Positions 38,403 to 42,698 of a stretch of DNA of 64,000 bases are shown piece by piece. Each line of letters starts with the position of its first letter. Position 1 is the first letter of the stretch. The notes under the pieces were generated by a model that searched no databases, had not been told where the DNA came from, and saw nothing but the letters and a program-made list of their open reading frames with translations. The DNA comes from Thermosipho sp. (in: thermotogales) (lineage in GTDB: Bacteria > Thermotogota > Thermotogae > Thermotogales > Fervidobacteriaceae), in contig JACDNZ010000001.1 of the NCBI GenBank assembly GCA_017656345.1, forward strand, positions 1 to 64,000, given 5' to 3'. Position numbers and translations under genes: made by a program.

Positions 38403-40514
38403 TTGGGCCGCTTAAGAGTATATGAACTTGCAAGACAGCTTGAAATGGATACAAGAGAATTGATGAAGGAATTAGCAGATTTGGGAATTGAAATAAAAAG
38501 TCATATGAGTTATATTGATGAAGATACTGTTAATATATTGTTAGAAATGTATAGTAAAGTTGAAGAGGAAGAAGAATATGAGGAAATAGGTGAATATGAA
38601 GAGTTTGTAGAACTTGAAGAAGAGTACGAAGAAACAAGGAAAATTAGTAAAAAAGGTGGGGTTGAGAAAGAAAGGCCTGAAAAGAAAAAGCCCTTAATTA
38701 CAATTACTGAGGAAGATTTGAAACTAGATAAATTTTCAGAAAAGATAGGTGTGCCTCAAAATAGAATTATTCAGGATTTTTTTATGAAAGGTGAAATATT
38801 GAAACCAGGACAAACATTAAATTTACAGCTTGCTAAAAAAATAGCAAAAATGTATGATGTAAGGATTGGTTTTGAAATAGAAGAAAGTACTGAAGAAATC
38901 TCCGAAAATCCTTTGGAAAAAATCGAAAAGTATTTTGAAGAAAAATATAAAGACAAAGAAAAATTAGTTGAAAGGCCTCCAATAGTTACAGTTATGGGAC
39001 ATGTTGACCATGGAAAAACAACCTTGCTTGATTACATTCGAAGGACAAGAGTTGCTGAACGCGAAGAAGGAGGTATTACTCAAAGTATAGGAGCTTATCA
39101 AGTAGAAGTAAATGGTAAAAAAATTACTTTTATTGATACACCAGGTCACGAGGTATTTACTGAGATGAGGGCAAGAGGTGCACAGGCAACGGATATAGTA
39201 GTATTAGTTGTAGCAGCTGATGATGGAGTAATGCCTCAAACAATTGAAGCATATAACCATGCCAAATCGGCGAATGTTCCTATAATAGTTGCAATAAATA
39301 AAATAGATAAACCAAATGCGAATGTTGAGTTAACAAAACAAGAATTAGTAAACAAACTTTCATTAATTCCAGAAGAGTGGGGCGGAGATACAATAATGGT
39401 TCCTATTTCAGCTAAAAAAGGTGAAAATGTTGACACGTTATTAGAAATGATACTTTTAGTTGCTGAAATGCAGGAAATTAAGGCAATTCCTGAAGGTACT
39501 GTTAGAGCGGTAACAATTGAAACTAAACTTGATAAAGGCTTTGGCCCAGTGGCTAATGCGATAATAAAGGACGGAAAGTTAAAAATAGGTGATTTCATTA
39601 TTGCAGGTAAAGTTAAGGGTAAAGTTAAGGCACTGGTAAATGATCAAGGTAAGAGAATAAAAGAAGCAGGCCCGTCTACACCAGTTATGATAGTTGGTTT
39701 TGAGGAATTACCAGATGCGCATAGTGTTATTTATTCTGTTGAAGATCTAGAAACAGCTCGTGAAATAAGTGAAAAGTTGAAAGAAATTGAACAAAAAGAA
39801 TTAAGAAGGAAAAGACATTTGAAATTAGAAGAAATATTAAAAATGATGGAACAATCTGAACAAAAGGAATTGAGATTAATTGTAAAAGCGGATACTTTAG
39901 GTTCAGTAATGGCATTGAACAATGCCATTCAGAAATTGCAAAGTGAAGAAGTAAGAATAAATATTATACACTCGGCTGTTGGAGCGATAACAACCAGTGA
40001 TGTTATGTTAGCCTCGGCTTCTGATGCAATTATTTTTGGATTTAGAGTGAAGGCAGATAGCCAAGCAAGAAAAATGGCAGAAACTGAGGGTATTCAAATA
40101 AAAACTTATACAATTATTTACAAGTTAATTGATGATTTGAAAGCAGCATTGGAAGGAATGCTTGAACCTGAAGAAGTTGAAGAATTAACTGGTAGAGGTG
40201 AAATTAAGAAAGTATTTAAAATTAAAAAAGTTGGAACAATTGCGGGTGTTCAAATGTATGAAGGTTATGTTGAAAAATCAGGAATTGCTAGATTGTACAG
40301 AAGTGGAAAGTTAATTTTTGAGGGAAAAATTGAATCTTTAAAACATTATCAACAGGATGTTAAAAGGGTAGATGCACCTCAGGAGTGTGGAATAAAACTG
40401 GAAAATTTTGATGATATAAAAGAAGGTGATGAACTCGAGTTTGCGATTGTTAAGAAAATCTCGAGAAAATTAACCTTTGAAGAAGAAAAACAATCTGAGA
40501 ACAAGGGTGAGTGA
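38403..40514 (+). CDS. infB: Translation initiation factor IF-2
   Basis: About 703 aa. Two IF2_N modules are present ([19 protein letters not shown] at the start and [20 protein letters not shown] near residue 105), separated by an acidic linker. The G domain carries [14 protein letters not shown] near 199, DTPGHEVF near 245 and NKID near 300. IF2-C domains follow. It brings initiator tRNA to the ribosome with GTP. The start is the TTG at 38403, six bases after AAAGGAGGTG; a GTG inside the Shine-Dalgarno is unlikely. Confidence 0.97.
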
Positions 40515-40515
40515 T

Positions 40516-41892
40516 ATGTTTGTAGATACCACCTTGAGAGATGGTCATCAATCACTAATTGCTACTAGAATGCGGACAATTGATATGCTTCCTGCACTTC
40601 CCACTATGGATGAGTTAGGTTTTGAAGCAATGGAAGTATGGGGTGGGGCTACTTTTGATGTTTGTGTTCGTTTTCTTAACGAAGATCCCTGGGAACGTTT
40701 AAGGGTTATAAAGAAAAATTTGAAAAACACAAAAACGCAGATGTTATTGCGTGGGCAGAATCTCGTTGGTTATAGACATTATGCGGATGATGTTGTTGAA
40801 TTGTTTGTAAAGAAAGCTATTGAGAATGGTATAGACAAAATAAGAATTTTTGATGCTTTAAATGATATAAGGAATCTTGAAAAAAGTATAGAGGTAGCAC
40901 TAAAGAATGGTGCACATGTTCAAGGAGCAATTTCATATACAATAAGTCCGGTTCATACGATTGAATATTATTTAGAATATGCAAAAGCATTAGTTGAACG
41001 TGGCGTTCATTCAATTTGTATAAAAGATATGGCAGGGCTATTAACCCCAAAAACTAGTTATGTGCTAGTTTCAGAATTAAAAAAACATTTTGATTTGCCA
41101 ATTGAAATCCATACACATTGTACTTCAGGATTAGGGAGTATGAATTATTTAGCTAGTGTAGAAGCCGGCGCTGATTATTTGGACACAGCTCTTTCGCCAT
41201 TTGCTCTTGGAACATCACAACCTCCATATGAAGCCGTATATTACACAGTTAAAGAATATAGAAAATTATCAGAAATTAATTGGCAAAAAATCGAATTTTT
41301 GGTGGAACATTTCAAAAAAGTAAGGGAAAAATACAAGGAATATGATATGGGAATGACAAGTATAGATTATCGAATTTTGGTTTCACAAGTTCCGGGTGGT
41401 ATGTATTCAAATCTTGTTAAGCAGCTTTCTGAGCAAAAGATGTTGCATAAACTTAAGGATGTGTTAGAAGAAATACCGAAAGTGAGAAAAGATTTGGGCT
41501 ATCCACCTCTTGTGACTCCAACAAGTCAAATTGTGGGTGTTCAAGCAGTTTTAAATGTTATGACAGGTGAAAGATATTCAAAGGTGACTAATGAAGTGAG
41601 AAATTATTTAAAAGGAATGTACGGAAAGCCTCCTGTACCAGTAGATGAGGAGTTAATTAAAAAAATATTAGGTGATGAAAAACCAATAGATTGTAGACCT
41701 GCAGATTTATTAGAACCTGAAATTGAAAATGCAAAAAAATCCATAGGTATTTTGGCTTCTTCAGATGAAGAACTTTTGATATATCTAATTTTGGGAGAAA
41801 TAGGAAGGAAGTTTCTTAAAGAAAGATATGAAGAGAAAATTTTAATTGATTTAGAGTTAGCCGATGAATTTGGAGGAGGTTATCCTGTTTGA
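40516..41892 (+). CDS. Oxaloacetate decarboxylase alpha/transcarboxylase 5S-type carboxyltransferase
   Basis: About 458 aa. It is a TIM-barrel carboxyltransferase with VDTTLRDGHQS at the start, the carboxylated Lys in ICIKDMAGLLTP near residue 180, and metal ligands in IHTHCTSGLG near 209. The C-terminal PYC_OADA domain is present, but the biotin carrier domain is absent, so a separate biotin protein is needed. OadA, pyruvate carboxylase subunit B and the 5S subunit of methylmalonyl-CoA carboxytransferase all look like this. A methylmalonyl-CoA mutase gene lies 1.5 kb downstream. ATG 40516 follows the infB stop directly. Confidence 0.85.
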   Translation: MFVDTTLRDGHQSLIATRMRTIDMLPALPTMDELGFEAMEVWGGATFDVCVRFLNEDPWERLRVIKKNLKNTKTQMLLRGQNLVGYRHYADDVVELFVKKAIENGIDKIRIFDALNDIRNLEKSIEVALKNGAHVQGAISYTISPVHTIEYYLEYAKALVERGVHSICIKDMAGLLTPKTSYVLVSELKKHFDLPIEIHTHCTSGLGSMNYLASVEAGADYLDTALSPFALGTSQPPYEAVYYTVKEYRKLSEINWQKIEFLVEHFKKVREKYKEYDMGMTSIDYRILVSQVPGGMYSNLVKQLSEQKMLHKLKDVLEEIPKVRKDLGYPPLVTPTSQIVGVQAVLNVMTGERYSKVTNEVRNYLKGMYGKPPVPVDEELIKKILGDEKPIDCRPADLLEPEIENAKKSIGILASSDEELLIYLILGEIGRKFLKERYEEKILIDLELADEFGGGYPV

Positions 41893-42698
41893 TAGTAGGT
41901 TTGGGAAACGATATTTTGGAAATCCAGAGAGTTAATGTTGAAATCGAGAGAAGAATTTTAACAGACTTAGAAAAAAATAAAAGAAAATTAGACGCCCAAT
42001 ATATTGCTGGGCGTTTTTCACTTAAAGAAGCTTTTTTTAAAGCGTTAGGTACAGGAATTGGTGGAAACTCTTTTAAGGATATATCGTTTTTGAACAATGA
42101 AAACGGAAAGCCATATGCGGTATTTCATAAGGAATTTGACGGCTTTAATTTTTGTCATGTGTCCTTGTCACATGATGAGTATGTAATTTCAACTGTTATT
42201 TTAGAGAAAGTGGAAGGGAATATATTTCTTGGTTTAGGAAGTAATATAGGCGATAAAGAAAAAAATTTGAGAGTAGCATTAAAAAAGTTGAAAGCAAATG
42301 GATTGAGATTAGTTAATGTTTCCAGTTTATATATAACCGAACCATATGGCTATGTTGAACAAGATGTTTTTTATAATATTGTTGTTGAGATAGATTCAAA
42401 TTTACCATATTTGAAACTTTTAAATTTGATTTTAAAGATTGAAAATGAAATGGGAAGGAAAAGATTAAAAAAATGGGGCCCGAGAAATATAGATATTGAT
42501 ATATTGTTTTATGGCAATTTGGTAGTTGAGATGGCAGATTTGAAAATTCCACATTATGATTTTGAAAACAGAGATTTTTTTATTGCACCAATGTACGAAC
42601 TTTCGGAAGAATTTAAGCATCCGATTTCCATGAAAACTATGAGAGATTATTATGTAAATCTAAAAGAAAAGTGGAAAAAAATAGATTGGAGTTTGTAG
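41889..42698 (+). CDS. Holo-ACP synthase fused to HPPK (AcpS-FolK)
   Basis: A 269-aa two-domain protein. Residues 1-110 are AcpS: VGLGNDILEI with the Mg-binding Asp, RFSLKEAFFKALGTG with its Glu near 47, and VSLSHDEYVIS. Residues 111-269 are FolK: IFLGLGSNIGDKEKNL, then KKWGPRNIDIDILFYG near 200, the ATP/pterin site. It would attach phosphopantetheine to acyl carrier protein and pyrophosphorylate hydroxymethyldihydropterin. The TTG start overlaps the preceding stop and follows GGAGGAGGT. No internal start with a good ribosome binding site is seen, so it is one polypeptide. Confidence 0.88.
   Translation: MIVGLGNDILEIQRVNVEIERRILTDLEKNKRKLDAQYIAGRFSLKEAFFKALGTGIGGNSFKDISFLNNENGKPYAVFHKEFDGFNFCHVSLSHDEYVISTVILEKVEGNIFLGLGSNIGDKEKNLRVALKKLKANGLRLVNVSSLYITEPYGYVEQDVFYNIVVEIDSNLPYLKLLNLILKIENEMGRKRLKKWGPRNIDIDILFYGNLVVEMADLKIPHYDFENRDFFIAPMYELSEEFKHPISMKTMRDYYVNLKEKWKKIDWSL

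Follow-up and report, generated by a model that had tools for sequence, protein, structure and literature searches.

The window, the stretch of 64,000 nucleotides that we analysed, carries a fusion of acpS and folK at positions 41889–42698 of the forward strand. The gene is a single open frame encoding 269 amino acids, with a TTG start and a TAG stop. Nine bases before the TTG lies a Shine–Dalgarno-like GGAGGAGG (41872–41879, forward strand), read directly from the letters, and relatives of the fusion in the window's own family (f1) show a comparable G-rich site ahead of their TTG start. Upstream, on the same strand, lies a gene that resembles those for pyruvate carboxylase subunit B and the oxaloacetate decarboxylase alpha subunit (oadA-like, 40477–41892), the stop of which overlaps the TTG of the fusion. 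The same oadA-like gene is the upstream neighbour of the fusion in f1 and in the sister family (f2), wherever upstream sequence is available. Across the segment 40477–45068 of the window, the fusion is flanked by this oadA/PycB-like gene and by genes for a class II aldolase and a methylmalonyl-CoA mutase; the class II aldolase gene is absent from the fusion locus in part of f1.

The N-terminal half of the encoded protein is an AcpS (holo-ACP synthase, a 4'-phosphopantetheinyl transferase) domain (residues 4–102; 41898–42194, forward strand; Pfam ACPS, E 1.1e-14) and the C-terminal half an HPPK (6-hydroxymethyl-7,8-dihydropterin pyrophosphokinase, FolK) domain (residues 113–239; 42225–42605, forward strand; Pfam HPPK, E 2.4e-36). 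Each half exceeds the curated cut-offs of its family: the AcpS half scores 67.6 bits against 59.8 for TIGR00516 and 54.9 against 25 for PF01648, and the HPPK half 135.4 bits against 54.1 for TIGR01498 and 125.1 against 25.7 for PF01288. This agrees with the sequence-only reading, which had placed an AcpS–FolK fusion here. Pfam reports ACPS and HPPK only, and the partner domain is neither FolB nor FolP; the nearest NCBIfam model is PRK14661, a long form of AcpS. The two Pfam envelopes are separated by a gap of ~10 residues, which makes the protein practically linker-free. At the junction lies LEKVEG (residues 105–110; 42201–42218, forward strand), a segment without a conserved start codon; junction length is near-constant across 30 fusions, the alignment of which runs through it gap-free.

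The residues expected of both active sites are in place. The AcpS half of the window protein carries D8, R14, E47, K51 and H95, all invariant among the 30 fusions (29 where a contig end cuts one). The catalytic aspartate of the GxGxD motif (D8) is found in 29 of the 29 fusions that cover the position, one being clipped by a contig end, and the catalytic glutamate of RFxxKE (E47) in all 30. The HPPK half carries the GSN motif and N163, E185, R192, W196-G-P-R199, D202, D204, H222, Y223, R228 and F230; the latter residues, together with N119, are invariant in the 30 fusions. In E. coli numbering, W89-GPR92, D95, D97, H115, Y116 and R121 are unchanged in 30/30. Both halves have a dN/dS below 0.3 in each of the eight fusion pairs tested, indicating purifying selection on AcpS and HPPK alike. 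The earlier claim that the catalytic residues of both domains are intact thus extends to every fusion in the set, and the fusion is, as judged from its sequence, a real bifunctional enzyme. The AcpS half would take phosphopantetheine from CoA and attach it to ACP; the HPPK half would pyrophosphorylate hydroxymethyl-dihydropterin for a DHPS encoded elsewhere. The sequence-only reading had further remarked that both enzymes transfer a nucleotide-derived group; the likeness is superficial, as phosphopantetheine comes from CoA and pyrophosphate from ATP, and the folds are unrelated.

In a whole-genome Pfam search of the window's genome (2.12 Mb, 88 contigs, 96.6% complete), the AcpS and HPPK families gave a single match each, both inside the fusion gene. 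With one match per family, separate second copies of acpS or folK, which the sequence-only reading had named as evidence that would count against its proposal, are absent from the assembled part of the genome. The fusion is the only predicted source of both enzymes in this genome, of which ~3% is missing. The other weak point named at the outset was a sequencing error between the domains. The uninterrupted frame recurs in 29 other genomes, single-contig ones among them, and we therefore exclude that a sequencing or assembly error joined two adjacent genes; the probability of such an artefact is negligible.

Two separate products could arise from this frame if AcpS was made from the first start and a free HPPK was released by internal initiation or proteolysis. 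The window junction does contain one in-frame GTG (Val108), which would favour such an arrangement. However, this codon has no clear Shine–Dalgarno sequence and is not conserved: in-frame start codons around the junction are scattered and unconserved among the fusions, and 15 of the 30 genomes have no ATG, GTG or TTG in the last 14 codons ahead of the GSN motif of HPPK. We set aside an internal start at the junction because its codon is not conserved, in keeping with the earlier statement that none is evident, and consider two products highly improbable. A single polypeptide would be by far the likeliest product.

To describe the distribution of the fusion, we ran the AcpS and HPPK families against 103 genomes of the phylum. 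The fusion is present in 20 of 20 f1 genomes, the window's own included, and in 10 of 11 f2 genomes; the f2 exception is a 71%-complete genome in which neither gene was found. A third family of the same order (f3) encodes AcpS and HPPK separately. In the rest of the phylum (f4–f11), AcpS is unfused, as is HPPK where it occurs, and throughout the survey the matches to the two families sit in separate places outside f1 and f2. A search of 398 and 296 genomes of two other phyla with a profile of the fusion gave no match spanning both domains among the matches listed. A fused gene would be expected to top such a match list. The impression that the architecture is uncommon is supported. Loci related to the fusion were also sought, and HPPK-only relatives were returned. 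Among openly accessible papers, a set with few subscription journals, we found none on an AcpS–HPPK fusion or on PDB entry 5XUM. AcpS–HPPK joins two known enzymes in an architecture that is new, but it represents no new mechanism.

The HPPK half is complete when compared with the HPPK/FolK family (PF01288/TIGR01498), with which it shares the WGPRxIDxDI and HYDxxNRxF motifs. The HPPK of the window is neither free nor joined to another folate enzyme but stands behind AcpS. Its best match in the PDB is the FolB–FolK protein 2CG8, which, like the window protein, has two domains, a length of ~270 amino acids and a C-terminal HPPK. In 2CG8 the partner is the preceding folate enzyme, whereas here it is an enzyme of fatty-acid/ACP metabolism. 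HPPK is likewise part of a multidomain protein in FolK–FolP fusions (PDB 4PZV and 3MCM; yeast FOL1, 2BMB), but their partner, DHPS, acts in the same pathway, and the DHPS of the window's genome is encoded by a separate, distant gene. AcpS is an unexpected addition to the known partners of folate-enzyme fusions. That a fusion need not mean a shared pathway is relevant to 'Rosetta stone' inference of function, and automatic pipelines would tend to label such a gene by one of its halves.

All fusion genomes but two incomplete ones contain DHPS, the enzyme that acts after HPPK, and its gene, folP, is separate and distant from the fusion. FolB scores above the cut-off in one of the 103 genomes of the phylum. 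The window's genome (G000) encodes two proteins of the PTPS family on contigs C10 and C3 (L166 and L171), one with a CExxHGH motif (hybrid I/III) and one with CxxxHGH. CExxHGH is the motif of PTPS-I/III hybrids, and such PTPS proteins can serve folate synthesis (PMC5041015). The two proteins probably replace FolB in this genome. With DHPS and a CExxHGH PTPS present, HPPK would have a working pathway, and it is plausible that the HPPK half has both a substrate source and a downstream customer. In the eight f3 genomes with a free folK, folP directly adjoins it, and in the f3 genera g10, g11 and g14 (G086–G088 and G097–G099) neither folK nor folP was found above the cut-off. These three genera are probably incapable of de novo folate synthesis. 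Those folP genes of f2 and f10 that have frames of ~400 amino acids (for example, L158:2228-3415, reverse strand) encode a DHPS with an N-terminal extension of ~115–130 amino acids, to which no Pfam match was found.

In a tree of HPPK domains, all fused HPPKs form one clade (support 99/91), from which it follows that the fusion arose once. The free HPPKs nearest to this clade come from f3 and f8, within the same phylum, where their genes lie beside folP. Most likely, the fusion was derived from the phylum's own folK.

The AcpS proteins of f3 (genes at loci L105–L116) carry ~55–70 extra C-terminal residues that begin where HPPK begins in the fusions; an example reads ...LERRRGGVFVKG...GEILEIETDLPPYELLRVLRERGCELLRYGNILEVE. 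The AcpS of G090 (L109:4992-5501), an f3 genome, matches PDB 5XUM at every one of its 169 residues, and NCBIfam NF011255 (PRK14661) models this long, tail-bearing form. From the 5XUM identity and the PRK14661 match we take 5XUM to be a Thermotoga AcpS, f3 to be the Thermotoga family and the order to be Thermotogales. The window protein shares with AcpS (PF01648/TIGR00516) a full domain that includes the catalytic D8 and E47 and the conserved H95. Its closest solved AcpS, 5XUM, ends in a ~55-residue tail resembling a remnant of HPPK, whereas the window protein has a whole C-terminal HPPK. Three segments of the tails are colinear with HPPK, namely the first strand, the VVEIETDLPPxELL strand–helix and the YGNLVV strand, and the motif 'EIETDLPPxxL...YGNIL' occurs in the same order as in HPPK. 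For the last of these segments, several alignments to HPPK are possible. The tails lack the catalytic WGPRxIDLDI loop and all of HPPK that follows it.

Plain HMMER comparisons of tail and HPPK gave weak scores, the best being 7.5 bits. With hhalign, tail and HPPK aligned with P 6e-5 and a score of 30.9, whereas the highest score among 300 column-shuffled controls was 21.2. We also applied a gap-tolerant profile test, in which whole blocks could be skipped by tails and decoys alike, to 13 tails and 1500 decoys. The tails scored 19.6–32.7 bits; the 99th percentile of the decoys was 20.9 and their maximum 23.6. Nine of the 13 tails lay above every one of the 1500 decoys, and the weakest was outscored by 2.6% of them. 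These comparisons point to the f3 tail as an eroded HPPK remnant without a catalytic core. Because the gap-tolerant test was devised after the alignment had been inspected and the 13 tails are mutually related, we call this assignment probable and go no further.

If the tail was instead an unrelated extension, the fusion would have arisen only in the ancestor of f1 and f2. Such an origin would suit the rpoBC tree, which places f3 outside f1 and f2 with modest support (83), the weak HMMER scores, and the surroundings of the f3 acpS gene, which has other neighbours: it occupies another locus, where oadA does not precede it, and no synteny was found between it and the f1 and f2 loci. On the other hand, the profile–profile and gap-tolerant tests both surpass their controls, and the tail begins at the same point after AcpS and follows the segment order of HPPK. 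We judge an unrelated extension unlikely. The rpoBC data do not reject a grouping of f2 with f3 (p 0.16), leaving the branching order of f1, f2 and f3 unsettled; for this reason, an origin of the fusion before f3 is argued from tail homology alone. A tree built from AcpS is too short to resolve f3. A bracketing of f3 by f1 and f2, considered as proof of secondary loss, was dropped because of the outside position of f3 in the rpoBC tree.

The f3 tails are under purifying selection, with a dN/dS of 0.05–0.45 where measurable, and they persist in f3 genera that lack folK and folP; the best-scoring tail of all belongs to G088, from one such genus. That the tail outlasted HPPK catalysis is consistent with a structural role for it in AcpS. 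On balance, we lean towards a captured HPPK that is indispensable in two families and that in the third has become a non-catalytic, selected structural stabiliser of AcpS, present in 5XUM.

Taken together, the data make it probable that AcpS–HPPK is a bifunctional protein that stems from one ancestral fusion, was kept in two families and decayed in a third, and that provides a benefit of co-expression or scaffolding. A duplicate folK would have landed behind acpS, either in an ancestor of the whole order or in one shared by f1 and f2 only. The f1 and f2 families would then have lost the free folK, with the fusion becoming indispensable to them. The Thermotoga family would have kept a free folP–folK pair or lost folate synthesis, while its fused HPPK eroded to a short C-terminal tail serving AcpS, probably in folding or trimer stability. 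Enzymes of the AcpS type form homotrimers in which the active sites lie between subunits. The fusion should accordingly form a trimer bearing three HPPK domains, with AcpS as the probable scaffold. Most likely, the benefit of the fusion is that it ensures co-expression and provides a stable scaffold, and does not come from crosstalk between the two pathways; stability at high temperature is probably part of the gain.

The sequence-only reading had raised a possible link between lipid and folate synthesis. HPPK could sense, or be gated by, the status of CoA/PAP or ACP through AcpS, tying one-carbon metabolism to lipid synthesis, and the tight junction, near-constant in length in 30/30 fusions, is compatible with contacts between the domains. 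However, folP is not near the fusion, it is oadA that f1 and f2 keep beside it, and no shared metabolite is apparent beyond adenine nucleotides. In f3, HPPK apparently decayed while AcpS was kept, which means that the two activities are separable. These observations speak against the proposed link, and we consider coupling of the two pathways very unlikely.

Of the two parts of the finding, the possible fossil domain in the f3 tail is the more interesting. If the assignment is true, a worn-down HPPK accounts for the odd C-terminal extension of Thermotoga AcpS, and the remnant completes a series that leads from a free enzyme via an active fused enzyme to a selected remnant.
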